Part shown: positions 1-35,496 of the stretch, piece by piece
Position numbering within the stretch: position 1 is the stretch's first letter
How the letters are laid out: every line of letters starts with the position of its first letter
Source: Niabella sp.
GTDB taxonomy: Bacteria; Bacteroidota; Bacteroidia; Chitinophagales; Chitinophagaceae
Direction of reading: 5' to 3'
Assembly: GCA_027493055.1 (NCBI GenBank)
Contig: JAPUDO010000122.1
Span: 1-35,496, forward strand
Length of the DNA: 35,496 bases
Notes under the pieces: model-generated
The model's input: only the letters and a program-made list of their open reading frames with translations
Database searches by the model: none
What the model was told of the DNA's origin: nothing
Program-made: the position numbers and the translations under genes

Positions 1-1
1 G

Positions 2-11988: not shown

Positions 11989-12058
11989 TAGCGTTGATAT
12001 TAAATAACGATATACAAACAGCTTAACGGTTAAAATTTCAAAGAAAAATAAAACAAAT

Positions 12059-15055: not shown

Positions 15056-15066
15056 AATGATAAAAG

Positions 15067-16593: not shown

Positions 16594-16619
16594 GTAGCAT
16601 CTTTGTTAGGAGCAGTGTT

Positions 16620-16627
16620 TATATTTG
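16620..16627 (+). promoter_or_regulatory. Putative -7 promoter box (TATATTTG)
   Basis: TATATTTG exactly fits the Bacteroidota -7 consensus TAnnTTTG and lies 69 bases before the truncated GntR start. The nearest upstream TTTG (16602-16605) leaves only a 14-base spacer, shorter than the usual 17-23, so the promoter is uncertain. Confidence 0.3.
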
Positions 16628-16692
16628 ATTAGCGATTTGAAAAATATACTAATGGAGTTGTTCCGCTCGTAAAAAGTTTGGAAAAGTGTAAA

Positions 16693-16747
16693 GTTTATGG
16701 GTCCTTTTAAAATTGTGTTCAATAAATGGGATAGGAAGGCTGATCAA
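16693..16747 (+). repeat. Direct repeat, copy 1 (start of GntR gene)
   Basis: These 55 bases are identical to 35442-35496, the last bases of the window. The match starts 4 bases before the ATG (gtttATG) and runs through codon 17. One base further upstream the two copies differ, and upstream sequence is unrelated. The right end of the repeat is unknown because copy 2 is cut by the window edge. Confidence 0.95.
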
Positions 16748-17128
16748 ATTGCTTGTGCCATAGCAACAGAAATTGAGAGGGGTAATATTTCTGCAGGTGA
16801 GCAGCTCCCCTCTATTAACAGGTTTAGTATATCTCATAAAGTAGCAAGAGATACGGTTGAAAAGGCTTATAGTATTTTAAAAAAGCAGGGTTTGGTAAGA
16901 TCCATCGCCGGCAAAGGTTATTTTACGGTTAAGAACAAATTAGTCAATGATAAAGCAATAGTTATTGTAAGCAGTATGAGTGGACATGAAGAAATATTGT
17001 GCAATACTTTAATTCAATATCTCAAAAAGGAATTAAATATTGATATCCGGCTGTATCAACATAATAGTAGCCGTCTGCAAAATTTGCTTGAAAATAGCCG
17101 GCTTATATATCAGCATTCTGCTTTATAG
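16697..17128 (+). CDS. Truncated GntR-family regulator (winged-helix domain plus short stump of sensor domain)
   Basis: This 143-residue product has an intact GntR winged-helix DNA-binding domain (about 8-75: DQIACAIATEIERGNI, then GEQLPSINRFSISHKVARDT, then KGYFTVKN). It continues into the first strands of a LacI/periplasmic-binding-like sensor (AIVIVSSMSGHEEI, then NIDIRLYQHNSSRLQNLLEN). Bacteroidota regulators of this architecture are usually about 330 residues or more. Here the frame stops after an unrelated-looking tail, SRLIYQHSAL. The break therefore falls near residue 133, and the effector pocket and most of the dimer interface are gone. Neighbouring frames just downstream do not restore the domain, so a deletion or rearrangement is likelier than a simple frameshift. 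Its first 51 bases equal those of the gene entering at 35446. It is most likely a decaying duplicate; a short DNA-binding product remains possible. Confidence 0.75.
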   Translation: MGPFKIVFNKWDRKADQIACAIATEIERGNISAGEQLPSINRFSISHKVARDTVEKAYSILKKQGLVRSIAGKGYFTVKNKLVNDKAIVIVSSMSGHEEILCNTLIQYLKKELNIDIRLYQHNSSRLQNLLENSRLIYQHSAL

Positions 17129-17293
17129 GTTTTTTTTTATAAGAAATGAATAAATTTAATGTTTAAACGATGATTTCAGCAGGATAGATTATAGGCGTCA
17201 GCGATTGTAATGGGATATAGTCTATGACGTTTTTTATATTTGACAAGCAATACTTACCTGTTTTGATTTTGCCTGGATTATTAGCTGATTTGT

Positions 17294-17307
17294 AATATTT
17301 AAATATT
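17294..17307. promoter_or_regulatory. 14-base perfect palindrome, possible operator
   Basis: AATATTTAAATATT is a perfect palindrome, flanked by GTA on the left and TTAC two bases to the right, giving an imperfect larger dyad. A second dyad, CTGAT-6 bases-ATCAG, follows at 17321-17336. Both lie upstream of the sigma-factor gene. In such AT-rich sequence chance palindromes are common. Confidence 0.25.
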
Positions 17308-17614
17308 GATTACATTTTAACTGATCACTTAATCAGCGCTATAAAGTGCTTAGAGAACGTATTTGAAGGACACCGGCGCAACATTGAGCCTTACACTGAA
17401 TAAAATTAGCCACTTGAATTAACTAAGAAATGTAAAGAACAAAATGTTTATGTAGGCAGCATTTTTACAGTTCTCCTCATAAAATTCCTACTTTGTGTTA
17501 CAGAACCTGAATTTCTATACAACATCTGTTAATATAATACCCACCATATAAAAACAGTCAACATAACTAATGCGCTCAATGGCATTAAATTATCTGAAAA
17601 AAGTCAGCTTTGGT

Positions 17615-17622
17615 TATTTTTG
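17615..17622 (+). promoter_or_regulatory. Putative -7 promoter box of the sigma-factor gene (TATTTTTG)
   Basis: TATTTTTG fits TAnnTTTG exactly and ends 15 bases before the ATG at 17638. It overlaps the alternative TTG start at 17620, so if real it rules that start out. No good TTTG -33 box is seen at the usual distance; TCTG at 17593-17596 is the closest. Confidence 0.35.
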
Positions 17623-17637
17623 CTATTTAAACAGCAA

Positions 17638-18219
17638 ATGCAGGTTGAGAATGTGTCATATTGGATAAATTTAATTGCTAAAAGCGGCGATGAAACTGCA
17701 TTTGCAAAATTGTACAGACATTATTTCTCCGGGTTGGTTTCTTTTTCTTATTCAATGCTAAAGGACAAACAGCGTTGTGAGGAAGTAATTGAAGATGTAT
17801 TTATAAAACTATGGATAAGCCGGGACAGGCTAACATCAATAGACAATATTACGCAGTATTTATATACTGCCGTAAAAAACTCCTGCATTAACGTCCTTAA
17901 TCGGGAACGAAATATTCATTTTGAAGAAATTGGAGATAGCCTTGAAGTTAGTTTTGTGTATGCTGAAAAAAAACTGATTGAAAAAGAGAATTTGAAAAAA
18001 ATAGCAAATGCTGTTAATGCTTTGCCTAATCGTTGCAAATTGATCTTTAGGCTGATCAAAGAGGAAGGGCTTTCATATAACGAAGTTGCAGAACTTTTGG
18101 AAATTTCTATTAAAACGGTTGATACCCAGCTAAATATAGCAATAAATAAAATAGCTGATGTACTAAAAAATGAGTTGCCAGAGTATAAAACATATTACCG
18201 GCGCAGAAACCGGCTCTAA
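17638..18219 (+). CDS. ECF-type RNA polymerase sigma-70 factor (FecI-like, Bacteroidota expansion family)
   Basis: This is a 193-residue cytoplasmic sigma factor. Region 2 is visible (GDETAFAKLYRHYFSGLVSF, then CEEVIEDVFIKLWISRD), as is region 4 with its helix-turn-helix (EEGLSYNEVAELLEISIKTV, then DTQLNIAINKI). It is followed 79 bases later by a FecR anti-sigma factor and then an STN-containing SusC, the standard trans-envelope signalling set. A bound substrate at SusC2 signals through STN to FecR, which frees the sigma factor to transcribe susC2/susD2 and downstream genes. A TTG at 17620 could add six residues, but a TAnnTTTG box overlaps it, so I chose the ATG at 17638. Confidence 0.92.
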   Translation: MQVENVSYWINLIAKSGDETAFAKLYRHYFSGLVSFSYSMLKDKQRCEEVIEDVFIKLWISRDRLTSIDNITQYLYTAVKNSCINVLNRERNIHFEEIGDSLEVSFVYAEKKLIEKENLKKIANAVNALPNRCKLIFRLIKEEGLSYNEVAELLEISIKTVDTQLNIAINKIADVLKNELPEYKTYYRRRNRL

Positions 18220-18298
18220 ATCTGTAAAAAAAAAATCTATATTCTTTTAGGGAATTGAATCTTTTATTGTGTTTTACTAATAAGAGGCCGGAAAATTA

Positions 18299-19330
18299 AT
18301 GAATAACCGAACTTTTATATTACTTCTTAAGAAATCAAAAGACGAATTATCTGAAGCAGAGCAAGAAGAACTATCTGCATTGCTGCAGTATGAGCAAAAG
18401 AGCGTCATGGATGATTTTGAAAAACTGGTTACTGCCAGGTTATGTTTTGATGACCCTGGAGTAGAAGAATCACTGAACCGGGTTATAGGGGAAATAAAAG
18501 AAGGTAAAGATAAAGTATCTGTAAGCAGTATTAAGAGAATGTACTTAAAATATGCAGCAGTTGCTGCGGCTGTTATTATTGTCTTTGGCTTGGCTTGGTT
18601 ATTTTATAACTCCCGCGATGTGAACTATAGTTCTCAGACTATAGTTCTTGCTGAGAAAAAAAATCATGTAGAAGACTATATACTACCGGATGGGACGAAG
18701 GTTAAAGTTAATAAAGCTTCCAGGCTCACTTTATCTGCTGATTTTAATGCTAATACACGGGAGGTGTACCTGGATGGAGAAGCTTTTTTTGATGTGGTAA
18801 AAAATAAAAAGAAGCCGTTTATTGTTCATACCAGTGCAATTGATGTAAAGGTATTGGGAACCGCATTTAATGTCAGAGCATTTCAGGAAGATTCAGTTAT
18901 TGAAACCTCGCTGATACGGGGTGCGGTTGAAGTAAAGGTTAATAAGAATGAGCAGGTTTTTCAATTAAAGCCAAGTGAGAAGATTGTAATAAAAACTAAT
19001 AAAGCTTCTGTAAGGAGCAATAACAGCACTGGGAGTGCACCTGAAATAAAGTTGAGCTCTTTCCATGCATTTGGTAAGGATTCCGTTTTATTAGAAACGC
19101 AATGGACAAAAGAAAAATTAGCTTTTGAAGATGAAAAGCTCAGGGATTTAATTCCCCGGTTAGAAAAGTGGTATAATATTACTATTGATGTAACGGATCC
19201 AACATTGCGAAACTGGAGGTTCAGCGGCATTGTTAAAGATGAAAGTGTAAAAGAGGTATTAGAACTCTTTAAAATCACATCAGGATTAAAGTATAAAATA
19301 GAGAAAGAACATGTGACGATTTATAAATAA
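18299..19330 (+). CDS. FecR-family anti-sigma factor
   Basis: This 343-residue single-pass inner-membrane protein has a cytoplasmic N-terminal sigma-binding part (1-80, with the usual LSEAEQEEL segment), a membrane helix at about 86-104 (YAAVAAAVIIVFGLAWLFY), a periplasmic FecR domain (about 120-215: LPDGTKVKVNKASRLTLSAD, EVYLDGEAFFDV, KVLGTAFNVRAF) and a C-terminal DUF4974/STN-like domain (about 265-343: LAFEDEKLRDLIPRLEKWY). All are normal for PUL-linked FecR proteins. The C-terminal domain is the expected contact for the STN domain of SusC2. It lies between the sigma factor and susC2, 79 bases after the former and 87 before the latter, with a hairpin in the second gap. An A10 run (18226-18235) lies in the first gap. 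Confidence 0.94.
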   Translation: MNNRTFILLLKKSKDELSEAEQEELSALLQYEQKSVMDDFEKLVTARLCFDDPGVEESLNRVIGEIKEGKDKVSVSSIKRMYLKYAAVAAAVIIVFGLAWLFYNSRDVNYSSQTIVLAEKKNHVEDYILPDGTKVKVNKASRLTLSADFNANTREVYLDGEAFFDVVKNKKKPFIVHTSAIDVKVLGTAFNVRAFQEDSVIETSLIRGAVEVKVNKNEQVFQLKPSEKIVIKTNKASVRSNNSTGSAPEIKLSSFHAFGKDSVLLETQWTKEKLAFEDEKLRDLIPRLEKWYNITIDVTDPTLRNWRFSGIVKDESVKEVLELFKITSGLKYKIEKEHVTIYK

Positions 19331-19333
19331 AAA

Positions 19334-19362
19334 GGCGAAAAATGCTGTGAACATTTTCCGCC
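19334..19362 (+). terminator. Stem-loop between fecR and susC2 (attenuator or processing site)
   Basis: GGCGAAAAATG (19334-19344) pairs with CATTTTCCGCC (19352-19362) across a 7-base loop, 10 of 11 pairs with one A/C mismatch. No U-run follows, so it is not a classic terminator. It sits 4 bases after the fecR stop and may separate weakly expressed regulator mRNA from strongly expressed transport mRNA. Confidence 0.45.
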
Positions 19363-19417
19363 GGCTTAAGACAGATTGCTAGTACAATTGCCTATTATTA
19401 ATTAACAAAACAAATGT

Positions 19418-22400
19418 ATGAAAAAAATGCTTGCCCAAGCTCTTTGGGGAATGAGATTTTCATTGACCAAATTTCTGCTTCAAATGAAACTTATTCTTTT
19501 ATTAATCTTGATTCCGGCTTTTCAGGCTTTCTCCTTTGATGGATTATCCCAGGAGCGTATTAATCTTGAATTAAAAGGCCAGCGAATATCGACGGTACTT
19601 AAATATATAGAGAAGAATTACGAGTATCGTTTTTTTTATAGTGACAAGGCAGGATTGAATAAGTTTAAAGTTGACATTGTTGCCAAGCAAGCAACCATTG
19701 ATTATGTAATGCAAAGCCTCTTGGCAACTACTCCTTTTTCATTCAAAAAAATGAATAAAGACCTCGTTGTGATTATTGGGTATGAAAATGATACCCTGGA
19801 GCATACGGTGGCTGGTAAAGTAATTAATGAGTCAGGTACTGCATTGGGAGATGTCAGCATAATCGAGAAGGGGACAAATAATGGCGTTACCACATCCGAA
19901 GAAGGGACATTTACAATAAAAGTTAAGGATGAAAATGCACTGCTTGTGATTTCTGCAGTGGGTTACCTAAGCAAGGAAGTTGCGGTAAAAGATTTTGGTT
20001 TTTTAGAGGTGCAGTTAACCGCATCACTCAACCAGATGGATGAGGTTATAGTTGTGGGCTATGGTGTTCAAAAGAAAGTTTCATCTACAGCTGCTGTTTC
20101 TTCTATCAAAGGCTCAGATATTGAGAACGTTCCTGTTGCCAATATCAGCAGCGCGTTGACCGGCAGGATTCCAGGGCTGATTTCTGCCCAGGGGAGTGGG
20201 GAGCCGGGTAATGATGATGCAGAACTTTATATACGGGGAATGGGAACAACGGGAAATAAAGCACCACTTGTAATTGTTGACGGCGTACCTCGTGAGTTGA
20301 ACCGGCTGGATCCTAATGTTATTGAATCGGTTACTTTGCTTAAAGATGCTGCTGCTGTTGCCCCCTATGGCGTTGCAGGTGCTAACGGCGTAGTACTGAT
20401 TACTACTAAAAGTGGAAAAACCGGTAAAGTTGCATTATCCTATAAAGGATATACAGGCTGGCAAAGTCCAACCGATGTTCCAAAACTGTTGAATTCATAC
20501 GAATATGCGTCTATGCGCAACCTGGCTACTAAAAACGAAAATCCAGCAGCTGCACTGCCGTTTAAGGAAAGTCAGTTAAATGGGTATAAAAAGACAGTAG
20601 AAGGTGCACAGGATGCAGACCCTGACAAATATCCGAATTCAGACGCGATGAGCTTTTTCAGGGATGCGAATACAACTATTACCGGGCATAGCCTTACAGC
20701 ATCCGGAGGGCAGGACATAGCTTCCTATTTTGTGGGGTTAGGTTATTTATATCAAAGCGGCCTTTATGCTACAACTGGTAGTAACAGGTACAACCTGACA
20801 GCTAAGTTGTCTTCGAAGGTTACCAGAACAACTACCATGGCGCTTTCAATAAATGGCTCCCAGCAGCAGATTGCCAGGCCCTGGCTTGATCCGATAACAG
20901 TTTTTGAAAGAGCTATTAAATGGAACCCCACAGTGGCTATTGAATTCACTAACGGATATTTAGCCACTAATAATGGTAACATTACCAATACAATGTATGC
21001 GAATACATTAAGCGGATCAAGACTTAGCGATCGTACGGAAATCTTTTCCCAGTTTTCTATCCAGCAGGAGCTGCCTTTCATTAAAGGGCTAAGTATGAAG
21101 GGGGTATTTAACTATGACCCTACAACAGTATCTAATAAAAACTGGCAGGGGGGGGGAGAGGCTGCCGGCATGGTGTTTTATAATATCGACACCACTAAGA
21201 CTCCTTATGTTTTTACCCCTGTAACGTTATCGTTGTCAAAAACCTTATATCAGAACAGTGAGCAACGGAAGAGGATCACATGGCAGGGGTACCTGAACTA
21301 TCATCGTAAGTTTGGTGCTCATGATATTACGGGATTGTTGGTTGCCGAGAGCAGAAGAACTACATACAGCGTTTTTTCCGCACAGCGGACAAATGGCATA
21401 CTGGATATTGATGAACTTGACTTTGGAAATCCCAATCAAACTTATTGGAGTAACGGGGGCAATTCTTCCCAAACATCCCAGGTTGGCTATGTATATAGGG
21501 CCGCTTATAATAACCAGGGGAAATATTTGCTGGAAGCCAGTGGGCGGTACGATGGCAATTACTATTTTGCACCGGGACATAAATTTGGTTTCTTCCCGGC
21601 ATTCTCGGCTGGCTGGCGCATATCGGAAGAAAAATTCATGAAATCAATAACATGGATTGATAACTTAAAAATTCGGGGTTCCTGGGGTATATCCGGTAAT
21701 CTGGCGGGAAGTCCTTTTCAATACCTGAGTACTTACGCTATTGATGCCGCGTCTTCTTATGTTTTTAATGGTAGCGTTTACCAGGGAGCTAAAGAAAGGC
21801 TTGAACCGAACCCGGATATTACCTGGGAGCGAGCAAAAAAATCGAATATCGGTTTAGAAGTATCACTTTTCTCCAGAAAGTTAAATATTGAGGCGGATTA
21901 TTTCAGGGAAAAGCGCAGCAATATGCTGGTAAGTCCTGCTACTGTAGTTCCTGCAGAGTACGGTATTGCTGTTGCTCAGGAAAATGCAGGAATCATGAGC
22001 AACCGGGGATTAGACCTGAATGTCAATGGCGTTCAGCGCATAGGAGATCTGTTAATTGATCTTACTTTCAATTTTACCTATACTAAAAATAAGCTGATAC
22101 AAACTTTCGAAAATGCAGCTACCTATAATGATCCCAACAGGAGGCGCACCGGCCGGCCGCTTAATACTATTTTTGGCTATGTGGCCGAACGCCTGTTCCA
22201 GGTAGAAGATGACAAAAACGGTGATGGGAAAATTGATGATAAAGATGGTTTTCCCGTGCAAACGCTGGGCGGCGTTGTAGCCCCGGGAGATATAAAATAC
22301 AAAGATCTAAACGGTGACGGCAAGATTGATGCCACAGACCAGACAGCTATTGGAAATCCAAATATCCCGGGAATTATTTACGGTTTTAGCCCCAGATTTT

Positions 22401-22852
22401 CTTATAAGGGATTAGATCTCTCAATTTTAATCCAGGGAGCCACTAAAACAAGTGCTTTTATAAGACAGGAGCTTGTGTGGCTGCTAAGCGGCGCTAATAC
22501 CACCACCTACACGCTCGATTACTGGACTCCTGACAACCGCGATGCAAAAGTGCCCCGCCCTTACGGAGCATCGGGAAATACCAATAACCAGCAAACCTCC
22601 ACCTGGTGGGTATGGGATATCTCCTATCTGCGGATTAAAAGTTTTGAGCTGGGCTATAAAATCCCCGAAGCGTTGCTGAAAAAGACACCGGTTAAATCTT
22701 TCAGGATTTTTGCTTCGGGACAGAACTTATTTACCTCAAGCATTGTGAAAGGTATTGTAGATCCTGAACTCTCTTCAACCGGCAGCAATACGAGAGGATG
22801 GTATTATCCTCAGCAACGTGCATTTTCTGTAGGAGCCAATATTACATTATAA
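19418..22852 (+). CDS. SusC-like TonB-dependent transporter, pair 2, with N-terminal STN signalling domain
   Basis: This 1144-residue outer-membrane transporter and signal transducer has a long signal region ending near SFDGLSQ (about 1-45). An STN domain follows (about 48-118: INLELKGQRISTVLKYIEKN), the part that touches FecR. Next come a carboxypeptidase-regulatory-like domain (about 128-205), a TonB-box-like MDEVIVVGYGVQKKVSSTAA (about 207-226), and a plug with ALTGRIPGLISAQG and LLKDAAAVAPYGVAGANGVV. The barrel ends in SVGANITL. Two EF-hand-like loops (DKNGDGKIDDKD and DLNGDGKIDATD) lie near residues 930-970, as in many SusC proteins. The STN domain and upstream sigma/FecR genes show autoregulated, substrate-sensing expression. 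A G9 run at 21148-21156 (about codons 577-580) is a possible slippage site. susD2 starts 20 bases downstream. Confidence 0.96.
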   Translation: MKKMLAQALWGMRFSLTKFLLQMKLILLLILIPAFQAFSFDGLSQERINLELKGQRISTVLKYIEKNYEYRFFYSDKAGLNKFKVDIVAKQATIDYVMQSLLATTPFSFKKMNKDLVVIIGYENDTLEHTVAGKVINESGTALGDVSIIEKGTNNGVTTSEEGTFTIKVKDENALLVISAVGYLSKEVAVKDFGFLEVQLTASLNQMDEVIVVGYGVQKKVSSTAAVSSIKGSDIENVPVANISSALTGRIPGLISAQGSGEPGNDDAELYIRGMGTTGNKAPLVIVDGVPRELNRLDPNVIESVTLLKDAAAVAPYGVAGANGVVLITTKSGKTGKVALSYKGYTGWQSPTDVPKLLNSYEYASMRNLATKNENPAAALPFKESQLNGYKKTVEGAQDADPDKYPNSDAMSFFRDANTTITGHSLTASGGQDIASYFVGLGYLYQSGLYATTGSNRYNLTAKLSSKVTRTTTMALSINGSQQQIARPWLDPITVFERAIKWNPTVAIEFTNGYLATNNGNITNTMYANTLSGSRLSDRTEIFSQFSIQQELPFIKGLSMKGVFNYDPTTVSNKNWQGGGEAAGMVFYNIDTTKTPYVFTPVTLSLSKTLYQNSEQRKRITWQGYLNYHRKFGAHDITGLLVAESRRTTYSVFSAQRTNGILDIDELDFGNPNQTYWSNGGNSSQTSQVGYVYRAAYNNQGKYLLEASGRYDGNYYFAPGHKFGFFPAFSAGWRISEEKFMKSITWIDNLKIRGSWGISGNLAGSPFQYLSTYAIDAASSYVFNGSVYQGAKERLEPNPDITWERAKKSNIGLEVSLFSRKLNIEADYFREKRSNMLVSPATVVPAEYGIAVAQENAGIMSNRGLDLNVNGVQRIGDLLIDLTFNFTYTKNKLIQTFENAATYNDPNRRRTGRPLNTIFGYVAERLFQVEDDKNGDGKIDDKDGFPVQTLGGVVAPGDIKYKDLNGDGKIDATDQTAIGNPNIPGIIYGFSPRFSYKGLDLSILIQGATKTSAFIRQELVWLLSGANTTTYTLDYWTPDNRDAKVPRPYGASGNTNNQQTSTWWVWDISYLRIKSFELGYKIPEALLKKTPVKSFRIFASGQNLFTSSIVKGIVDPELSSTGSNTRGWYYPQQRAFSVGANITL
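21148..21156 (+). repeat. G9 homopolymer inside susC2
   Basis: Nine consecutive G residues encode part of WQGGGEA in the barrel region of SusC2. Gain or loss of one G would shift the frame about halfway through the gene. Confidence 0.9.
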
Positions 22853-22872
22853 AATCGTTTAAAAATAAAAAT

Positions 22873-24522
22873 ATGAACACTTCTAAAAATATAGGGGTAT
22901 TTGTTGTGGTACTTATTGTTGTCTTGCTGGCTAGCTGTAAAAGGGGGTTCCTTGAAATCGTACCAAAGGATCAGTTAAGTTCAGAAACACTTTTTGCAAA
23001 TAGGGATGGTGCCGACATTTTTTTAAATGATATTTATAGTGTGCTTCCAGATCAGGAAGCTGGTGGCACAACCGATCCCTGGGAAGCCTGGAGCGATAAT
23101 GTAACGGGCCGTTATAGCTGGGGAATGTCGTGGGAGAATTCTGTTACGAGGTCTTATGGTGCCAGTACAAATAACCCCGGCCTGTACAACCACGGCTACC
23201 CTTCTGTTCCGTTCAAATATGACGATGTGTATGTAAGAGTAAGAAAGTGTAACCTGTTTATATCAGAAGTAGGTAAAAATGCAGCAAATCTTGATGAGAG
23301 CTGGAGAAAGCAAAGACTGGCCGAGGTGAGATTTCTGCGTGCATTCTATTATCACTGGCTGTGGATGGCTTATGGAGGAGTACCCCTGATCAAAGAAGTG
23401 CTTAACCGGCAGGAACAGGGAGATGGTATTTTTTATCCCCGTAGTTCTTACCAGGAGACATACCAGTTTATAGTTGATGAGCTGAATGAAATTTATATGG
23501 ACCTTCCAAATGAAGTGGGCACCGGAAGGGCTACCCGGGGTGCAGCATTAACATTAAAAGGGTGGTGTGAACTGTATAATCACAAATATGCTGATGCTGC
23601 AAATACCAACCAGCAGGTAAGAGACCTGGGTAAATACGGGCTTTTTGCCAATTATAATAACCAGTTTCTTACCACGAATAATAATAATAAAGAATCGATA
23701 TTTGCTTATCAGCATCTTTCGGGTTCTAAGAATTCAGGACGTTCGGGTGAATTTGGACCTATGCCTTCGCGCGGGGCGATGCAACCCACACAAAACCTGG
23801 TAGATGATTATTTGATGAAAGATGGGTTACCGATCACTGTATCCCCGTTGTTTAAACCAGATTCTCCTTATATAAACCGTGACCCAAGGTTTTACCAGTC
23901 TATTGTATACGATGGTTCTACATGGCGGAATATCGTATACTATACCAGACAGGGCGGTAATTATTCAGTTAGCTCAAACGCCGAAAGACATACGGGATAT
24001 TTTAGAAGAAAGGGAATTAATGATGGTGTTACAGAAGTAAACGTTCTGGAAGGGCCCAACTATGAGTATTTCCGGTATGCAGAAGTTTTGCTCAACTATG
24101 CGGAGGCCAAAATTGAGCTTAACCAGATTGATCAGTCTGTGTATTCCGCAATCGATAGTGTAAGAATGAGAGCTGGGATACCTACATTAATAAATACGTA
24201 CTCACGACAGCTTACACAACCTGAATTAAGAGATATTGTTAGAAGAGAACGAAGAATTGAGCTGGCATTTGAGAACAAGCGCTATTGGGATTTGATCAGG
24301 TGGAAAACTGCCGAAACCGTATTGAACCAGCCCAAGTATGGCATTAACATAAGCTTACAGAATGGTAAATTGGTGTACAATAAATTTATCGTTCACAACA
24401 TGGTTTTTTATAAAGAGAAAAACTATCTCTTTCCTGTCTTTCAGGGCTGGATAGATCAAAATCCTACTATACGCGCTCAAAATACCGGAGAATTTAATGC
24501 GGGTCAGAACCCAGGGTATTAG
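22873..24522 (+). CDS. SusD-like surface glycan-binding lipoprotein, pair 2
   Basis: This 549-residue RagB/SusD-family lipoprotein is the partner lid of SusC2. The start is ATG at 22873: it gives a clean lipoprotein signal with LLASC and Cys22, whereas the upstream in-frame ATG at 22798 lies inside susC2 and adds a non-signal extension. Typical SusD segments are present: EVRFLRAFYYHWLWMAYGGV (TPR-like core), RAAEVLLNYAEA-like FRYAEVLLNYAEAKIELNQI, and the C-terminal LRDIVRRERRIELAFENKRY with an ending of NAGQNPGY. It follows susC2 by 20 bases and is cotranscribed with it. The gap after it holds a small stem-loop. It is only generally similar to SusD1, so the two pairs probably handle different fragments. 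Confidence 0.96.
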   Translation: MNTSKNIGVFVVVLIVVLLASCKRGFLEIVPKDQLSSETLFANRDGADIFLNDIYSVLPDQEAGGTTDPWEAWSDNVTGRYSWGMSWENSVTRSYGASTNNPGLYNHGYPSVPFKYDDVYVRVRKCNLFISEVGKNAANLDESWRKQRLAEVRFLRAFYYHWLWMAYGGVPLIKEVLNRQEQGDGIFYPRSSYQETYQFIVDELNEIYMDLPNEVGTGRATRGAALTLKGWCELYNHKYADAANTNQQVRDLGKYGLFANYNNQFLTTNNNNKESIFAYQHLSGSKNSGRSGEFGPMPSRGAMQPTQNLVDDYLMKDGLPITVSPLFKPDSPYINRDPRFYQSIVYDGSTWRNIVYYTRQGGNYSVSSNAERHTGYFRRKGINDGVTEVNVLEGPNYEYFRYAEVLLNYAEAKIELNQIDQSVYSAIDSVRMRAGIPTLINTYSRQLTQPELRDIVRRERRIELAFENKRYWDLIRWKTAETVLNQPKYGINISLQNGKLVYNKFIVHNMVFYKEKNYLFPVFQGWIDQNPTIRAQNTGEFNAGQNPGY

Positions 24523-24593
24523 CGGTCCACAAAACTTATATAAATATCGCTTACTTATAATTTTTTATATAGCCTTCTGGTTATGTAAGTGCC

Positions 24594-24612
24594 ATGCATT
24601 TGTTGAATGCAT
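24594..24612 (+). terminator. Small stem-loop between susD2 and the GH127-like gene
   Basis: ATGCATT (24594-24600) pairs perfectly with AATGCAT (24606-24612) across TGTTG and is followed by TTTATAAAA. The stem is short and AT-rich, so it is at best a weak attenuator or processing site that would lower enzyme expression relative to susCD2. Confidence 0.3.
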
Positions 24613-24631
24613 TTTATAAAACGTATTTTTT

Positions 24632-26347: not shown

Positions 26348-26351
26348 CATT

Positions 26352-28733
26352 ATGATAAAGAAACTTAAAAGAATTTTACTTACTGTTTTTGTCTGTCTTT
26401 TATCTCATTCGTTATTACAGGCAGGTTTGGGAAGAAAGGTAGAGAAATTTGATTTTGACTGGCGTTTTAACCTGGGCGATGTGCGGGGCGCTGCTGCGCC
26501 TGATTTTGATGATAAGGGCTGGCGGTTGCTGAACGTACCGCACGACTGGAGTATCGAACAGTCATTTGTATATGATAAAAAATTAAGCGCCAATGGATTT
26601 TTACCAGGTGGTGTAGGATGGTACAGAAAGCATTTTTCTATATCTCAAAAGGACCAGGGTAAAAAGATCTACCTTCATTTTGAAGGAGTATACCATCAAA
26701 GTGATGTTTATATTAACGGGCATCACCTGGGGTTTCACCCTTATGGTTATACTCCTTTTGAATATGATCTTACAGATTATATAAGGTTTGGCGAGGATAA
26801 TGTGATTGCGGTTAAAGTGGATCATGCAGAGCTTCCGTCTTCGCGATGGTATTCTGGCTCAGGGATATATAGAAATGTCTGGTTAAAGATATTAGAACCG
26901 GTGCATATTGATCTTTGGGGAACTTTTGTATCAACACCCCGGGTATCCGCCGCAAAAGCGGATGTCAAACTGGAAACTTCCATCAAAAATAACAGTTCCG
27001 TTAACGCTAATTGCACGGTTATAGCAGAGATAATAAACCAGTATGGAGTAAATGTAGGTAGCCATACTACTAGGCTAATCGTAAAGCCGGGAATGGTACA
27101 AAAGGCCGACCAGCAAATCGCAGTTGCTCAACCTTCCCTTTGGTCTCATAAGAGCCCTTATTTGTACCAGGTACGAACTACTGTAAAAAATGGAAAGAAA
27201 ATAATCGATCAAATTACAACGAAGTTTGGTATAAGAACGGTTCAGTGGGACGCGGACAGGGGGTTTTTGCTAAACGGAGATGTTGTAAAACTAAAAGGGA
27301 TGAATCTTCATACAGATGGAGGGGCTGTAGGAACAGCTGTACCTCCTAAAGTATGGCAGCGACGCCTTAAAACCTTGACGGATATTGGTTGCAACGCCAT
27401 CCGGGCCAGTCATAATCCTCCAGACAGAGGGTTCCTGGAACTTTGTGATTCAATGGGGTTTCTTGTAATTGACGAGGCTTTGGATAAATGGCGGAGATAC
27501 GGGTACTATCAGAAGTATTTTGAAGAATGGTGGCAAAAAGATATTGGAGCAATGGTATTAAGAGACCGTAACCATCCCTCAGTTATTTTATGGAGCGTGG
27601 GTAACGAAGTGATTGAACAAAACCTACCATCTGGAACTGATACTGTTAAATTGTTGGTGGATTATGTCCATAAACTGGACCCTACAAGGAAAGTGATGGT
27701 GGGCCTTAACCCTTCCAGGGGGTTCAACGAGAATGGCTTTGCGCAGGCATTGGATGTAGTGGGGTATAATTACCAGGAGCCCTGGTACGAACAGGATAAA
27801 AAAGAGTTCCCGTCCAGAATCTTTGTGGGCACTGAGACGTACTGTTATTTTCGGGGCTATGAAGGTAACAAGATGAATTTTGAAACGCGGAAGAATCCCT
27901 GGTACGATGTAGCAGAAAATGAGTATGTCGCAGGCTCATTTTTATGGCCAGGTATCGATTACATAGGAGAAGTGGGCGGCTGGCCCCTGAAAATAAGGTC
28001 TTCTGGTATCATTGACATTGCTGGGTATCCCAAAACCATTGCAGGTTTTTTTAAAGCAGTTTGGCTTGATAGACCCGTTGTTTCCCTTGCCGTATTAGAC
28101 GATCATGCAGATTTAAAAGTAGACCCTGCCAAGCTGAACTGGTCTTATCCTAGAATGGTTTCTCATTGGAATTTTCCTTACTTTAAGAAACACCTGATCC
28201 GGGTTCATACATTTACAAATTGTGAATCAGTAGAACTGCAGGTGAACCAGCATTCTTTTGGAGAGCGTAAGACTGCTGAGTTTGCCAATAATACAATAGA
28301 ATGGTGGGTGCCTTATGCCGAAGGTCATCTTATTGCTATCGGGAAAAATAATGGAGTTGAGGTCACAAGGGATACATTAAGTACTGCATCTGCTCCTGCC
28401 AGGATTAACCTGAGTACAGGAATGAATAAGATTTTTGCAGACCGGCAGGATGTTTCGATAGTGGAGCTTGAATTACTGGATGAAAAAGGCAACCTGGTTC
28501 CCGATAAAGACCTGAATGTAGCATTTTCTATAACAGGTCCCGGAAAATTAATTGGAATTGACAATGGAAACCAGGATAGCGATGAGCCATTTAAAAGTAA
28601 TGCACGTCATACCCGGTTTGGAAAACTGATCGCGATCATCCAGTCTGACGGCAAGCCGGGTACAATAACAGTTTCAGCAAAATGTCAGGAACTTCCTGAA
28701 GGCCAGTTGATCATTCATGCTTTATCTAAATAG
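26352..28733 (+). CDS. GH2 beta-galactosidase-like enzyme with DUF4982 and terminal Ig-like domains
   Basis: This is a 793-residue secreted GH2 enzyme. The start is ATG at 26352, 4 bases after the preceding stop; an in-frame ATG at 26331 overlaps that gene and would add seven residues before the signal peptide. After the signal peptide (about 1-23) come the sugar-binding domain (FDFDWRFNLGD, VPHDWSIEQ, GVGWYRKHF), an Ig-like domain, and the barrel from LKGMNLHTDGGAVG. Acid/base Glu419 lies in LWSVGNEVIEQ and the nucleophile Glu495 in FVGTETYCYF. FLWPGIDYIGEVGGWP closes the barrel. A DUF4982-like region (about 600-670) and a terminal Ig-like domain follow. It has the same architecture as the partial gene at 2-934. 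Beta-galactosidase is the commonest activity for this layout, but glucuronidase is not excluded. Confidence 0.92.
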   Translation: MIKKLKRILLTVFVCLLSHSLLQAGLGRKVEKFDFDWRFNLGDVRGAAAPDFDDKGWRLLNVPHDWSIEQSFVYDKKLSANGFLPGGVGWYRKHFSISQKDQGKKIYLHFEGVYHQSDVYINGHHLGFHPYGYTPFEYDLTDYIRFGEDNVIAVKVDHAELPSSRWYSGSGIYRNVWLKILEPVHIDLWGTFVSTPRVSAAKADVKLETSIKNNSSVNANCTVIAEIINQYGVNVGSHTTRLIVKPGMVQKADQQIAVAQPSLWSHKSPYLYQVRTTVKNGKKIIDQITTKFGIRTVQWDADRGFLLNGDVVKLKGMNLHTDGGAVGTAVPPKVWQRRLKTLTDIGCNAIRASHNPPDRGFLELCDSMGFLVIDEALDKWRRYGYYQKYFEEWWQKDIGAMVLRDRNHPSVILWSVGNEVIEQNLPSGTDTVKLLVDYVHKLDPTRKVMVGLNPSRGFNENGFAQALDVVGYNYQEPWYEQDKKEFPSRIFVGTETYCYFRGYEGNKMNFETRKNPWYDVAENEYVAGSFLWPGIDYIGEVGGWPLKIRSSGIIDIAGYPKTIAGFFKAVWLDRPVVSLAVLDDHADLKVDPAKLNWSYPRMVSHWNFPYFKKHLIRVHTFTNCESVELQVNQHSFGERKTAEFANNTIEWWVPYAEGHLIAIGKNNGVEVTRDTLSTASAPARINLSTGMNKIFADRQDVSIVELELLDEKGNLVPDKDLNVAFSITGPGKLIGIDNGNQDSDEPFKSNARHTRFGKLIAIIQSDGKPGTITVSAKCQELPEGQLIIHALSK

Positions 28734-28739
28734 CCTCTT

Positions 28740-29732
28740 ATGAAAATAATTTATTGTTTAGCCGGTATGTTTATATTTAGTGTAGTTACCGGCCTTCAGG
28801 GGAAAGCACTTGGCCAGTCTTTTACCCGATCCATTACCTCTCCAATTCTTTTTAAGGGCAATGATTCTGTAGCCTACCGGGACCCCGCCGTGTTATTTAA
28901 TAAAGGCGTGTTTTACCTGTTTTTTACGGTGGTGAAAACGCAAGAAGACGCCAGGATTTATTCCTATACGGCGGTGTCCCGTTCCAAAGATCTGGCACGC
29001 TGGACTCCTCCTGAAATGATTACGCCAAAAGATCAGGATCTGAACTTTTCCAGCCCCGGTAATATTGTACGATTTAAAAATGAATGGATATTATGTTTGC
29101 AAACCTATCCCCGTCCGGGTTATAAGATGGGGCAGAAAATTATGTATGGCAATTCAAATGCCCGGCTATACATTATGCGCAGCAAGGATTTAAGAAAATG
29201 GTCAGATCCAGAGCTTTTAAAAGTACAGGGTGATATTTCATTCGAACAGATGGGAAGAATGATCGATCCGTACTTATTGGAAGATAAAGATTACCCCGGT
29301 AAATGGTGGTGTTTTTATAAATACAAAGGAGTGAGCATGTCTTATACCTACGATATGAAACACTGGGTTTATGCTGGTAACATACCGGATGGAGGAGAAA
29401 ATACCTGTGTTCTGGTCGAAAAAAAACAATACCGTATGTTCCATTCTCCCCACAACGGAATAGGACTAAAGAGATCTCATGATCTTGTTCATTGGACAGA
29501 TGATACGGGCCTGATAACTTTAGGACAGCAAAACTGGCCCTGGGCAAAAGGGCGTATTACTGCAGCAACTGTCATCAACCTCAAGCGTTATAAGCCAGTT
29601 GGAAAGTACCTGATGTTTTTTCACGGTTCAGGACCGAAGACTGAATTAGAGGGTGATTTTGACAAAAATGCTTCCATTGGTTTTGCCTGGAGCGATGATT
29701 TGATGAACTGGACCTGGCCAGGTAAGATGTGA
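28740..29732 (+). CDS. GH43-like five-bladed beta-propeller enzyme
   Basis: This 330-residue secreted protein has a signal peptide ending ALGQ (about 1-26), starting 6 bases after the GH2 stop. It belongs by appearance to the GH43/GH32/GH117-type propeller superfamily. The inferred catalytic triad is Asp48 in VAYRDPAVLF (base), Asp176 in GRMIDPYLL (pKa modulator) and Glu220 in DGGENTCVLVEKKQYRMF (acid). Repeated blade motifs such as SRSKDLARWTPPE, MRSKDLRKWSDPE and WSDDLMNWTWP are clear. Characterised relatives mostly release alpha-L-arabinofuranose, beta-xylose or galactose. The sequence is not a textbook GH43, so the subfamily and substrate are open. A neighbouring gene (29880) encodes a second, divergent propeller. 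Confidence 0.78.
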   Translation: MKIIYCLAGMFIFSVVTGLQGKALGQSFTRSITSPILFKGNDSVAYRDPAVLFNKGVFYLFFTVVKTQEDARIYSYTAVSRSKDLARWTPPEMITPKDQDLNFSSPGNIVRFKNEWILCLQTYPRPGYKMGQKIMYGNSNARLYIMRSKDLRKWSDPELLKVQGDISFEQMGRMIDPYLLEDKDYPGKWWCFYKYKGVSMSYTYDMKHWVYAGNIPDGGENTCVLVEKKQYRMFHSPHNGIGLKRSHDLVHWTDDTGLITLGQQNWPWAKGRITAATVINLKRYKPVGKYLMFFHGSGPKTELEGDFDKNASIGFAWSDDLMNWTWPGKM

Positions 29733-29879
29733 GCTTATTAGGAATTAGTCCGGAGTAGTATCATATTAAACATACTATCTACCAGCAAGCTTCAGGCATA
29801 GTGAGGATTGTCATAAAGGGCTCGTCAAAGCTGTTTTTATATTTTAATGCAGATGTATCATTCTTAAATGTTTAAGATT

Positions 29880-30791
29880 ATGAAAAAGTCTTTTACTCTT
29901 TTTTGCTTCATATTCTTTTTTAGCATATCCCGGGCCCAGGATTTTTATGTGCCGGATACTGAACCGGCATATATAGACCCGGTTTGGCATGGGGGCGCTG
30001 ATCCTGTTGTATTGTGGAACCCCGTTAAAAAAAAGTTTTACATGTATTATACCCAAAGGCGTGCAGACCTGAAAGGGGAAGGGTGGGCGGAAGGATCGAA
30101 AATTGGTATCGCAACATCGAAGGACGGCCGTAAGTGGCAATATGCAGGAACCTGCAAGGGAGAGAGGTTAGAATATCCTGTTGAGGATGATTATTCTTTG
30201 TGGGCGCCTTCTGTAATCTACCATAAAAGAACATTCCACCTGTATGTGAGTTATGTGCCCGGCATCACCGGAAAAATGGGAAAAGGTATCAGTTATATCA
30301 AGCATTATACCAGTAAAGATGGCGAAAACTGGAACTTCAAGTCTTTTATTCCGCTTTCTTCCGACAGGTGTATTGATCCTTGTGTTTATAGAGTTGGAAA
30401 AACCTGGGTGATGGCATATAAAGATGAGGCTCATGGTGCCCGTACCTGGTTGGCAGAAAGTGAAGATCTCAACAGGTGGAAAGTAACGGGTGCCGCCATT
30501 GAAGACCTGCGCCATGAAGCACCTTTTTACTGGAAGCAAAATGGACGCCATTTCATGATTGTTGATGCCTGGAAATTGCAGGCGCGGGTTTATGAATCTC
30601 CGGATGGTTTGAGTAACTGGGCCTATGTTACCAGTTTCCCGGCCGGGCACCCGGCCATCCTGCAGGCCAAAGGTAAAACCTTTCTTATTCATCATACGCA
30701 TGATACGGAAATGCCGCGGCGGACAGCTATATTCATCAAAGAACTGGTTATAGGTGAAGATGGGAAGCCTTTGCCTGTTGCCAGCAAGTGA
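29880..30791 (+). CDS. Second GH43-like five-bladed beta-propeller enzyme
   Basis: This 303-residue secreted protein, counted from ATG 29880, has the signal peptide MKKSFTLFCFIFFFSISRAQ. An in-frame ATG at 29868 would add MFKI and cannot be excluded. Putative GH43-type catalytic residues are Asp41 in GGADPVVLWN, Asp166 in RCIDPCVYR and Glu213 in RHEAPFYWKQNG, with a trimmed set of blade motifs (ATSKDGRKW, YTSKDGENW, AESEDLNRW). The three acidic residues fall at the spacing expected for the propeller superfamily. It lies 147 bases after the previous propeller gene (135 if ATG 29868 is used) and shares only the fold with it. Likely an exo-acting arabinofuranosidase, galactosidase or GH117-like hydrolase; which one is not decidable here. 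Confidence 0.78.
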   Translation: MKKSFTLFCFIFFFSISRAQDFYVPDTEPAYIDPVWHGGADPVVLWNPVKKKFYMYYTQRRADLKGEGWAEGSKIGIATSKDGRKWQYAGTCKGERLEYPVEDDYSLWAPSVIYHKRTFHLYVSYVPGITGKMGKGISYIKHYTSKDGENWNFKSFIPLSSDRCIDPCVYRVGKTWVMAYKDEAHGARTWLAESEDLNRWKVTGAAIEDLRHEAPFYWKQNGRHFMIVDAWKLQARVYESPDGLSNWAYVTSFPAGHPAILQAKGKTFLIHHTHDTEMPRRTAIFIKELVIGEDGKPLPVASK

Positions 30792-30896
30792 TGTATAGAT
30801 CTGTAACCCCTTTTACATTACAGGTGCTTACTTCTCCCTCTTTTAAGAAAGATTAATTCAATAAAAACTTATTCATAACGATTACAGCTTATAAAA

Positions 30897-33053
30897 ATGA
30901 TAAAGAAAAATTTACTCCTGTTCCTTTTTATCTCATTGTTCAGTGGCATTCAAATAGCTTCCGGGCAAAAAATGGAAGGCTGGGTAGGCGCCTATAAAGG
31001 ACGAATGGCTTTTTTTATAAATGGCAAGCCCGTACCTCCGTTAATGTATTCCGGTACGGAGCAGGGGCGTCAAACCTGGAAAGACCCGACCGAAAAAAGC
31101 ATAGCCCAGTTTACTTCCATAGGATACGATATCATTCAAACCGATATGTGGTTGAAATATTCCCTTTTGCCTGACGGTAGTTTTGATGTGACTGGAATTA
31201 AAAGGCAGTTGTCCGGGATTTTAAAAATTAATCCGCAAGCTAAAATCGTAGTACGTATTAATGTTTCTGCACCTAAATGGTGGCTGGATAAATATCCACA
31301 AGAACGGTGCTGTGTTACAAAACCAGGCCCGGATAACAAGGAGTTTGGCGGAAATGTTGCAGAAAGCCTCGCATCAGAAGCATACCGGAGGTTTGCTGAA
31401 GACAATTTGAAACTTTTTTTAAAGGAACTGATAAAACTGCCTGAGTCGGATCGTATTGTAGGTTTTCATGTTGGAGGAGGCGTATACGGAGAATGGCATT
31501 ATTACGGGATATTTAATGAGCCCGATTGTTCCACATCGATGGATATATATTTCCGGAGTTTTGCGAGGCAGAAATATGGTACAATCGATAGTATTAATTT
31601 TTATTGGAATACCCGTTATAAGAATCCGGACGAAATCCGGGTGCCTGGCTATGAAAGAAGATTTGAGGTTGCCGACGGGGAATTCAGAGACGCCCGGAAG
31701 GACAGGCTCGTAGTGGATTATTATGATTGTCAGCAGCAGGCAATTTCGTCGCTTGTTTACAACCTTACAAAGCTGGTGAAGGATACCTGGCCCAGAAGAA
31801 CAATCGTTGGTGTATTTTTCGGGTATTTTTACGGAGGGTTTACGGTAGGTGCCCAGGCCAGCCAGGCCGATATTAAAACCATACTGCAAAGCCCCTACAT
31901 TGATTATCTCGCAGGTCCTTATTACTCCAGGTCAATGGAGGGGTCTGGGTGTTACAGGTCTCTGGCCGCTTCGATGGCGCTGAATGGAAAAATATGGCTG
32001 ACAGAACATGACGGCGGCACACATTTGGGAGGCAGCGGTGCCAATAAAGCCTATTTTCCTGGGATACCGGCTAACGAGGATCAGTCCGTAGCGCGGATGA
32101 GAAGAAATTTTATGTATAGCATCACTGAAAATGGCGGGCAATGGTGGTACGATTTCGGGCCCAAAAGCCAGGGCGGCGGTTGGTGGTCAACACCCCGGAT
32201 GCTGAATGAGGCGAAATCTCTTTTGGCGATCTCAAACAAACAGCTGGAAGCGGGCTATCATTCAACAGCAGATGTGCTGGTAGTACACGATATGTACGCT
32301 TATTACTACAACCGTCCCAAGCGGACTGAGAAATATACGGTTTCCCTGGTAGAGAAAATGGCGGACGCCTTACTGGGCACTGGTGCGTCTTTTGAAAAGA
32401 TCTTTTTAATGGACCTTAAAAAGGTGAATTTGTCAAAATACAAAATGGTTATTTTCTCCCTTACTACCTTATTTGATGCCGACATGCGGGCGTATATCAA
32501 GACTAACGTAATGAACGATGGAAGAACCGTGGTGTTTATGTCGGCAGCGGGCTACACAAACGGCAATGTTAGCTCCACTACTTTCATTTCACAACTTACC
32601 GGAATGAATATTATAAAAGCTCCGCTAACAAAGCGTATGTCTATAGAAATAAGTGGTAAGACTGAAGAGGTTAATACAGATGGAATTTTAAGTCTTTTTC
32701 AGATTGACGATAAAGCGGTAACAACTTCCGGCATCTACAACAATGGATTTGTTGCTGCGGGTTTTAAAAAGATGCATAATTATACGGTGTGGTATATAGG
32801 CGCTCCCCTGGGAGAAAGCCCTGAGATATATAAAATGCTTTTCAAGCAAGCAAATGTTCATTTTTATGTAGAAGGCGTGGTGCCAAAAGATTATATATCA
32901 GTTGGTGGCGGAATGATAGGGATTTATACAGTGAATGGAGGTGTAAAAACAATTTATGCACAAAATGGAAAACCCGTTAAAATAAATATGCACCCGTATG
33001 CCTGCCGTTATTTCAACCTTGTTGATGGTGATCCAATTAACACAGAGGATTAA
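30897..33053 (+). CDS. GH42-like clan GH-A glycosidase (putative beta-galactosidase or beta-mannosidase-type)
   Basis: This 718-residue secreted protein has a signal peptide ending ASGQ (about 1-24) and three visible parts. First is a TIM barrel (about 35-420) with PPLMYSG, RINVSAPKWWL, GFHVGGGVYGEWHYYG (Glu199), FNEPD (Glu208) and IWLTEHDGGTH (Glu370). Next is a Rossmann-like domain (about 440-600: DVLVVHDMYAYYY, KMVIFSLTTLFD, GRTVVFMSAAGYTNG) like the trimerisation domain of GH42 enzymes. Last is a small beta-rich C-terminus. Glu370 is the best nucleophile candidate; the acid/base is Glu199 or Glu208. Bacterial GH42 proteins are usually cytoplasmic, so a secreted copy points to a related family such as the GH42-like or GH164-type groups. 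It starts 105 bases after the propeller gene. Confidence 0.75.
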   Translation: MIKKNLLLFLFISLFSGIQIASGQKMEGWVGAYKGRMAFFINGKPVPPLMYSGTEQGRQTWKDPTEKSIAQFTSIGYDIIQTDMWLKYSLLPDGSFDVTGIKRQLSGILKINPQAKIVVRINVSAPKWWLDKYPQERCCVTKPGPDNKEFGGNVAESLASEAYRRFAEDNLKLFLKELIKLPESDRIVGFHVGGGVYGEWHYYGIFNEPDCSTSMDIYFRSFARQKYGTIDSINFYWNTRYKNPDEIRVPGYERRFEVADGEFRDARKDRLVVDYYDCQQQAISSLVYNLTKLVKDTWPRRTIVGVFFGYFYGGFTVGAQASQADIKTILQSPYIDYLAGPYYSRSMEGSGCYRSLAASMALNGKIWLTEHDGGTHLGGSGANKAYFPGIPANEDQSVARMRRNFMYSITENGGQWWYDFGPKSQGGGWWSTPRMLNEAKSLLAISNKQLEAGYHSTADVLVVHDMYAYYYNRPKRTEKYTVSLVEKMADALLGTGASFEKIFLMDLKKVNLSKYKMVIFSLTTLFDADMRAYIKTNVMNDGRTVVFMSAAGYTNGNVSSTTFISQLTGMNIIKAPLTKRMSIEISGKTEEVNTDGILSLFQIDDKAVTTSGIYNNGFVAAGFKKMHNYTVWYIGAPLGESPEIYKMLFKQANVHFYVEGVVPKDYISVGGGMIGIYTVNGGVKTIYAQNGKPVKINMHPYACRYFNLVDGDPINTED

Positions 33054-33116
33054 AAAGCGGCAATTGCCTGAGATTGTCGTATGTAAAGGAGGATTTTTGA
33101 ATAAAAATAATCGAAC

Positions 33117-35429
33117 ATGATAAAAAGAGCTTTTTGTATAGTAAGTCTTCAATTGCTTGTATGCCTGGCATTTTGCCAGGAATGGAAAGGGCGGTGGATA
33201 TCTACAGAACGTTGCCAGAGTGCTTCCAATACCTGGCTCGCTTACAGGAAGGAATTTACTTTGGAAAAAGAAGTGAAATTGGCCATGGCACGAATAGCGG
33301 TTGATTCTAAATACTGGCTTTGGATCAATGGAAAAATGGTGGTGTTTGAAGGTGGGTTAAAAAGAGGTCCTAACCCCTTTGATACTTATTATGACCAGGT
33401 TGATATAGGTCCTTACCTGGTGGAAGGGAAAAATGTAATTGCAGTCTTGGTATGGTTTTTCGGAAAAGATGGTTTCTCTCATAGCAGCAGCGGGCGGGCG
33501 GGGCTTTTGTTTGACTGTATGGCTGATGAGGTGAATGTATTTTCAGATAGCAGTTGGAGATGTTCTGTATTGGAAGCATATCAAACGGCACCTCCGCCGT
33601 TTCCCAATTATCGCTTGTCAGAGTCAAGTATTTTATACGATGCCAACAAAGAGATGGGAGACTGGAAAGCCAAAGATTTTAAAGGTAAGATAGAACCCGC
33701 TGTGGTTTTGGGCGAAGCAGGAGGCTATCCCTGGAACAGGCTTCATGTCAGGCCAATACCCCAATGGAAGAATGCTGGCTTAATGCCGTATCGCAACGTG
33801 AGAAAAAGCATTTCTGACAAATACGATACCTTGATCTGCGTACTGCCATACAATACCCAGTTAACGCCTTATTTTAGGGTGGAAGCGGAAGCGGGGAAAA
33901 AAATCATTATTGGTACCGATAACTATTTTTTTTTTAAAGGCGGATCTGGAGAAAACATCCGTACAGAATATATAACAAAAACAGGTGTACAGGAATATGA
34001 AGGGTTGGGATGGATGAATGGCCACAAAGTATATTACATAATTCCCCGGGGGATAAAAGTTTTAGAGGTTAAATACCGGGAAACAGGATATCTGGCTTCT
34101 TTTGAAGGGCGTTTTCATAGTTCGGATCGTTTTCTTAATGAGCTTTGGCTGAAAGCACAACGGACGCTGTATGTCAACATGCGGGATACCTACATGGATT
34201 GCCCGGAACGGGAACGGGCGCAATGGGCTGGTGATGCCGTGCTCGAATCTGCACAATCTTTTTATGCACTTTCTTCATCGGCCCATGCACTCTCTAAAAA
34301 ATGGCTGACTGAATTATTGGGATGGCAACAGGACGATGGAAAGATATTTGCGCCTTCCCCGGCGGGGAACTGGAACAAAGATTTACCGGACCAATCGCTT
34401 GCAGCGGTAGGCTACTATGGCTTGTGGAACTATTATATGCATACCGGTGATAAATTATTACTGGAGGAGCTTTATGAGAAGATACGAAAATACATGTTTC
34501 TATGGGAGCCGCAGAAAGATGCTTCTTCGAAGCCGAGGTACGGAGATTGGACCTGGGGAGACTGGGGAAATAACAGGGATATCCCGCTGCTTTATGATCT
34601 CTGGTATTACCTGGCAGTAAAGGGAATGCACCTTACGGCAAAGGAGCTTAAAAAAGAGAGCGATGAAGCATTCTTTCTGCAATATATGCAGGCATTTAAA
34701 ACTGCATTTGATAAAAAGTACTGGACGGTTAGAGGATATCGCTCTGGTAATTATAAGGAAAGTACAGATGACAGGGCGCAGGCGTTGGCAGTCCTTTGCG
34801 ACCTTGTTCCCCGGGAAAAATATCCTGATCTGTTAAAAATATTTCAGACGGAATATCATGCAAGTCCTTATATGGAAAAATATGTATTGGAAGCCATGAT
34901 GGAAATGGGTTATGCCCGGGAAACACTGCACCGTCTGAAATTAAGATACAAATCAATGGTAGATGGCTGGGCGTTTTCGACATTGCCTGAACATTGGCCA
35001 GGTTCAGACGGTCATGTTGCGGGTTCGATAAATCATGCATGGAGCGGCGGTCCCCTGATCATTTGTTCGCAATATATTAATGGGATTGTTCCGCTTATTC
35101 CGGGTTATCGTTTATTTGAACTGACTCCCCACCCCGAATTGATGAACATGGGCACTACAGAAGTAGCCAGCATCGCCGGAAAAATAATAAGCGTTTACCG
35201 TCAGCTTCATTCAGGTTTAGAGCTAAATGTAACAGTACCGGACGGCACCTCGGCAATTGTAAACATTCCTTCCGGAAAACTAAGGATGGTGACTTTGAAT
35301 GGCAAAAAGATTTGGGAAAAGGGCAAATATCTGAAAGGGCTGAAGCCAGATGGAACAAATACCAGGTTGGAATATATTCCTTTTAAAGTTGCTTCAGGAG
35401 TTTGGCGCTTTCAGGCTAAAAATATTTAA
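33117..35429 (+). CDS. GH78-like alpha-L-rhamnosidase
   Basis: This 770-residue secreted enzyme is predicted to cut alpha-linked L-rhamnose from oligosaccharide ends. It has a signal peptide ending LAFCQ (about 1-21), and an N-terminal beta-sandwich (about 25-170) with WKGRWIST and RIAVDSKYWLWINGK, typical of rhamnosidase jelly-roll domains. A second beta domain follows, then an (alpha/alpha)6 barrel (about 335-690) with MDCPERERAQWAGDA, where Asp373 and Glu364/Glu366 lie in the catalytic motif. Further motifs are YGDWTWGDWGNN, STLPEHWPGSDGHVAGSINH and AWSGGP. The C-terminal beta-sandwich has LTPHPEL. The motif is one residue shorter than in classic GH78 enzymes, so this may be a divergent GH78-like subgroup. 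A T10 run (33926-33935) lies in the gene. The GntR gene entering at the right edge starts only 16 bases downstream. Confidence 0.85.
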   Translation: MIKRAFCIVSLQLLVCLAFCQEWKGRWISTERCQSASNTWLAYRKEFTLEKEVKLAMARIAVDSKYWLWINGKMVVFEGGLKRGPNPFDTYYDQVDIGPYLVEGKNVIAVLVWFFGKDGFSHSSSGRAGLLFDCMADEVNVFSDSSWRCSVLEAYQTAPPPFPNYRLSESSILYDANKEMGDWKAKDFKGKIEPAVVLGEAGGYPWNRLHVRPIPQWKNAGLMPYRNVRKSISDKYDTLICVLPYNTQLTPYFRVEAEAGKKIIIGTDNYFFFKGGSGENIRTEYITKTGVQEYEGLGWMNGHKVYYIIPRGIKVLEVKYRETGYLASFEGRFHSSDRFLNELWLKAQRTLYVNMRDTYMDCPERERAQWAGDAVLESAQSFYALSSSAHALSKKWLTELLGWQQDDGKIFAPSPAGNWNKDLPDQSLAAVGYYGLWNYYMHTGDKLLLEELYEKIRKYMFLWEPQKDASSKPRYGDWTWGDWGNNRDIPLLYDLWYYLAVKGMHLTAKELKKESDEAFFLQYMQAFKTAFDKKYWTVRGYRSGNYKESTDDRAQALAVLCDLVPREKYPDLLKIFQTEYHASPYMEKYVLEAMMEMGYARETLHRLKLRYKSMVDGWAFSTLPEHWPGSDGHVAGSINHAWSGGPLIICSQYINGIVPLIPGYRLFELTPHPELMNMGTTEVASIAGKIISVYRQLHSGLELNVTVPDGTSAIVNIPSGKLRMVTLNGKKIWEKGKYLKGLKPDGTNTRLEYIPFKVASGVWRFQAKNI
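33926..33935 (+). repeat. T10 homopolymer inside the GH78-like gene
   Basis: Ten consecutive T residues encode the end of a Tyr codon and three Phe codons in the second beta domain. Such runs are potential transcriptional or replication slippage sites. Confidence 0.9.
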
Positions 35430-35441
35430 CGATTATTCATT

Positions 35442-35496
35442 GTTTATGGGTCCTTTTAAAATTGTGTTCAATAAATGGGATAGGAAGGCTGATCAA
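35442..35496 (+). repeat. Direct repeat, copy 2 (start of GntR gene, truncated by window edge)
   Basis: Identical to 16693-16747 over all 55 available bases. Copy-to-copy distance is 18,749 bases. The left boundary is sharp: 35441 is T whereas 16692 is A, and sequence further left is unrelated. Confidence 0.95.
35446..35496 (+). CDS. GntR-family regulator, first 17 codons; continues outside window
   Basis: Seventeen codons (MGPFKIVFNKWDRKADQ) are visible before the window ends. They are identical at the DNA level to the start of the truncated GntR gene at 16697, so the encoded protein should begin with the same winged-helix domain. Only 16 bases separate it from the GH78-like stop, so it is probably the last gene of the enzyme operon, or autoregulated within it. 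This copy is likely the full-length version, about 330 residues with a LacI-like sensor if family-typical. That is inference because the rest is not visible. Confidence 0.7.
   Translation, partial: MGPFKIVFNKWDRKADQ

Follow-up and report, generated by a model that had tools for sequence, protein, structure and literature searches.

Contigs that are broken at repeats end in a common sequence of the length of maxK, which the available text of PMC10914622 describes for assemblies made with metaSPAdes and MEGAHIT. The contig studied here resembles the cases in that text in two aspects: first, one fixed overlap length recurs at several termini of a single assembly; second, the match consists of the last bases of a contig, with a repeat as the likely cause. 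Unlike those cases, its terminus has a partner inside its own contig and not at another terminus; the other internal partner in the present assembly belongs to the left terminus of contig C121, exactly 55 bases of which are located inside contig C16 at 17744-17798. The window, that is, the whole stretch of DNA that was analysed, is the entire contig C122 (positions 1-35496; 35,496 bp) of an assembly of 131 contigs, and it carries near its middle and at its right end two copies of the beginning of a GntR-family regulator gene, which enclose a set of carbohydrate-related genes.

Identity at the ends of the module

Exact comparison confirmed the 55 identical bases that an earlier note on this DNA had reported for both ends of the module. 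Copy 1 (16693-16747, forward strand) and copy 2 (35442-35496, forward strand) are the same throughout, whereas the bases preceding them differ, which places the left boundary of identity at 16692/16693. As the window is a whole contig, copy 2 is a contig terminus, formed by the last 55 bases of C122. Chance was rejected as the origin of the identity, because exact repeats elsewhere in the window (the last 55 bases left out) reach 15 bp at most, and the longest ones in 20 first-order Markov resamplings measured 13-17 bp. A 601-base query around copy 1 detected just two places in its own assembly (29 of 29 candidates scored). The 55-mer had 0 exact matches in viral contigs, window 16600-17640 gave nothing at E<=1e-5 against plasmids in distant mode, and for structured RNA there was no Rfam match at E<=1 in the region 16500-17700.

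The same length is found at other contig ends. Among the 45 termini compared, five pairs (C1_L/C127_R, C127_L/C14_L, C45_L/C16_L, C15_L/C98_R and C22_L/C50_R) have exactly 55 bases in common at offset 0; the remaining matches are shorter, with match length and offset adding up to 54 or 55 in most of them, and no overlap exceeds 55. The ends of C98, C50 and C106 coincide exactly with the ends of their matches. Because one fixed overlap recurs at other termini and none is longer, the assembly almost surely ended with a k-mer of 55, as far as the contig sequences themselves can tell; the assembler is unrecorded, and the pattern points to a short-read assembly with k = 55. Copy 2 would then amount to one k-mer.

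On sequence grounds it is nevertheless probable that a real direct repeat flanks the module, because assemblers normally come to such a halt when one sequence can be reached by two paths; the true repeat likely begins at 16693/35442 and measures 55 bp or more. The earlier note had gone further and proposed a recent duplication or gene conversion. The direct repeat that this presupposes probably exists, but the dating does not hold: any repeat of at least 55 bases would give the same 55-base match, and copy 2 breaks off after one k-mer, which puts any divergence beyond 35496 out of sight. That copy 2 is still matching where the window ends likewise tells nothing of extent or age, the edge being the contig end. 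An assembly artefact, named in the same note as a possible refutation, accounts for the length and the edge of the identity, but probably not for the repeat itself. Two aspects are of more general relevance. First, the end of a contig can be mistaken for a biological boundary when it coincides with the edge of a window; second, exactly k identical terminal bases reveal neither how old a duplication is nor how far it extends.

A probable exit from the repeat

The last 43 bases of contig C55 (right terminus, 16264-16306, reverse strand) are identical to positions 17373-17415 of the window (forward strand), which we infer to be the right end of the repeat. Besides this one and C122 itself, the own-genome searches covering the window gave no exact match; some of these searches scored all candidates and others the best 40 of 78, 67 and 113. 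The match lies 0.7 kb from the 55-mer, and its position and orientation are as expected if a path that enters the repeat at 16693 leaves it here; by our estimate, random placement in the window would produce such a match in about 1 in 100 cases. The full repeat, R, is probably 723 bp long, with copy 1 extending between the two termini from 16693 to 17415 (forward strand, 33% G+C) and with C55 as the exit. The order would then be A-R-B-R-C55, in which a flank is followed by R, an 18.0-kb polysaccharide utilisation locus (PUL), R again and tRNA-Glu.

We therefore consider, with a probability of about 0.65, that this is an ordinary repeat-caused break of a k = 55 assembly with the order A-R-B-R-C55, in which both copies of R hold the same GntR fragment. 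De Bruijn-graph assembly, with 55 as its final k-mer, would have produced the window as a single contig, whose path would pass through A (the first PUL, 1-16692), R and B (the second PUL), re-enter R and stop one k-mer in, so that exactly 55 identical bases would be left at the end. The GntR gene would have been broken before the duplication, after which both copies would be the same fragment. The most likely, though tentative, origin of the doubling of R is a recombination event in which the accessory PUL B was gained or duplicated next to tRNA-Glu. A real 723-bp repeat would give C122 a neighbour and put an accessory PUL next to tRNA-Glu; apart from that the feature is ordinary, a repeat-caused contig break over a probably real repeat.

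The regulator fragment

The ORF at 16697-17128 (forward strand) encodes a GntR-family regulator of 143 aa that is limited to the DNA-binding part (Pfam GntR, PF00392, E=2e-10, residues 15-76). The 18 homologue ORFs compared, which had been preselected for 300-460 aa, have lengths of 336-361 aa in 17 cases and 301 aa in one; copy 1 is therefore truncated, in agreement with the earlier note. The homologues align up to residue 143 of the protein or position 17143 of the translation at most; past 17143 the matches, for the part of the window shown, have E above 1 only, and in the next 490 bases after the ORF the three forward frames contain 16, 18 and 8 stops. The missing C-terminal part of about 200 residues, which we take to be a sensor domain, was not found after 17143, and copy 1 ends at 143 aa; in the C2 homologue, this part had no Pfam match at E<=0.001. 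A near-identical full-length relative was looked for in 394 family genomes and rejected, the best match besides the window's own having 39% identity. Copy 2 is readable up to residue 17, where the contig ends.

The start of copy 2, with its ATG 16 bp past the stop of the GH78-like gene, encourages a different reading, in which copy 2 is a full-length regulator gene native to this position and copy 1, behind the SusD gene, arose recently as a duplicate of the first part of copy 2. A position behind a carbohydrate gene would suit the regulator family, because a same-strand gene is located just upstream in four of the six full-length homologue loci examined (a carbohydrate esterase (SASA), a sulfatase, a DUF6807 gene and one without a Pfam match), two of them of carbohydrate type. 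A short exit contig leading into the remainder of the gene could also be missing, the smallest of 43 contigs being 3201; absence of another exit contig says little, because among the best 40 of 169 candidates scored an exact partner was not seen for 19 of the 25 left termini and an exact 55-base partner was seen for at least 6. On the other hand, 0 of 46 related GH78 loci (44 from one search, together with G014 and G032, G022 being left out; flanks up to 5 kb, some shorter) contain a gene related to the regulator at E<=1e-5, and a GntR gene beside GH78 in relatives was rejected on this count. Among the examined contigs, C55 at 17373 is the sole start within 16600-17640, where all candidates were scored, and none continues copy 2 into the remainder of the regulator. 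Hence the native operon position after GH78 is not borne out, and neither is the full length that the earlier note had attributed to the other copy, since with C55, the sole candidate exit, copy 2 would be truncated in the same way. A native full-length copy 2 is unlikely, although it deserves to be kept in view. In the preferred order A-R-B-R-C55, both copies would hold the same broken GntR fragment provided that R runs to 17415.

The length of the repeat

The weak point of a 723-bp R is that the overlap with C55 is 43 bases where 55 are expected. This could be due to 55-mers missing at the second junction, or to a third copy outside the contigs examined. In addition, the termini of C15 and C68 are about 81% similar to window 17394-17431, and a dispersed element may for that reason end there, with the C55 match unrelated to the 55-mer. 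The repeat would then be of some other length of at least 55 bp, with its exit outside the contigs examined. We regard this as quite improbable, considering that the 43-base core exists in exactly two copies, one of them at a terminus, and that the distance and orientation of the C55 match would seldom arise at random. When up to three mismatches were allowed, a 23-base core was detected at two places only, both mismatch-free, and the reversed control pattern had one match. In related genomes, the similarity to the C55 end starts at C55 bases 40-48 (G005, two places in G010, and G011), which is where the window match stops and therefore as expected for a junction there. Inspection by eye of the two 40-base ends of R revealed no inverted repeats. 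A misjoin or chimeric path, in which the second entry into the 55-mer is absent from the genome, is scarcely credible. Copy 2 does lie exactly at the contig terminus with nothing readable beyond, but the other exact-55 termini act as ordinary shared repeats and the end of C55 speaks for the existence of a second copy.

Dispersed repeats are present elsewhere in the assembly. The last 55 bases of one of them, to which window 17394-17431 is about 81% alike, are common to the left end of C15 and the right ends of C98 and C68 (208626-208682), and the interior of this repeat is absent from the contigs examined. Copies of a second one, about 250-280 bp long and 90-93% alike, are located at C68:208322-208598, C16:17554-17825, C12:56527-56775 and C121:1-72.

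The module and its surroundings

Module B, between the two copies of R (17416-35441, forward strand, 18,026 bp), has Pfam matches for an ECF sigma factor, FecR, SusC-like and SusD-like proteins, GH127-like, GH2, two GH43-like and GH42-like enzymes and an alpha-L-rhamnosidase (GH78-like), and it is a PUL that ends in the GH78-like gene. A mobile-element gene in the module was considered and rejected: no transposase, resolvase or integrase was detected in the 18 ORFs scanned out of 32 rows, the remaining 14 being alternative starts or overlapping ORFs. To the left of the repeat, at window 952-16593, Pfam matches reveal a second PUL with a hybrid two-component regulator (reverse strand), a GH88-family gene, a pectate-lyase-like gene, GH2, SusC-like and SusD-like genes. 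At the left end of the contig, window 1-903, which holds the final part of a GH2-type gene, shares 83% identity with C67:11714-12613.

On the other side of the proposed junction, C55 carries tRNA-Glu, and gapA and pgk were read from its translations. Its first 195 bases on the reverse strand, before tRNA-Glu, have no match in G001, G002, G003 and G012; the similarity of these genomes to C55 starts at the tRNA. By eye, gene content at this place varies among the four, with dehydrogenase-like ORFs in G002 and G003. Of 16 genomes from the same genus, 1 contains relatives of the GH78 gene at E<=1e-80. Considering these unmatched 195 bases and the rarity of GH78, both sides look accessory, in keeping with the gain of a PUL beside a tRNA gene.

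A sequence of about 155 bp located 3' of tRNA-Glu in C55 (L121, about 16111-16264) recurs at other places in same-genus genomes with 77-81% identity (G010:C2:335138-335311, G005:C3:2502183-2502359, G011:C1:5567872-5568037 and G016:C15:3203-3330). It overlaps the ends of tRNA-Arg in G010 and G005, and a serine recombinase ORF is located close to it in G010, as is a tyrosine integrase ORF in G011. This sequence may mark an insertion hot spot.

Comparison with known systems

The presence of two identical 723-bp copies would open one further possibility, which we consider a long shot: homologous recombination between them could delete the 18.7-kb PUL unit, multiply it or release it as a circle, glycan use would then vary within the population, and the loop in the contig would be the trace of this in the assembly graph.

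Module B presumably represents a Bacteroidota PUL with an ECF sigma/FecR pair. As in other loci of this kind, ECF sigma, FecR, SusC, SusD and glycoside hydrolase genes run in one direction; the repeat at the ends is the sole extra feature, and there is otherwise nothing unusual. The setting can also be compared with genomic islands beside tRNA genes. As in such islands, the gene content looks accessory, and the 3' side of tRNA-Glu in the inferred neighbour is absent from four same-genus genomes. Unlike tRNA-borne islands, this locus has no recombinase among the 18 scanned ORFs, and its repeat holds a broken regulator gene and not the end of a tRNA.
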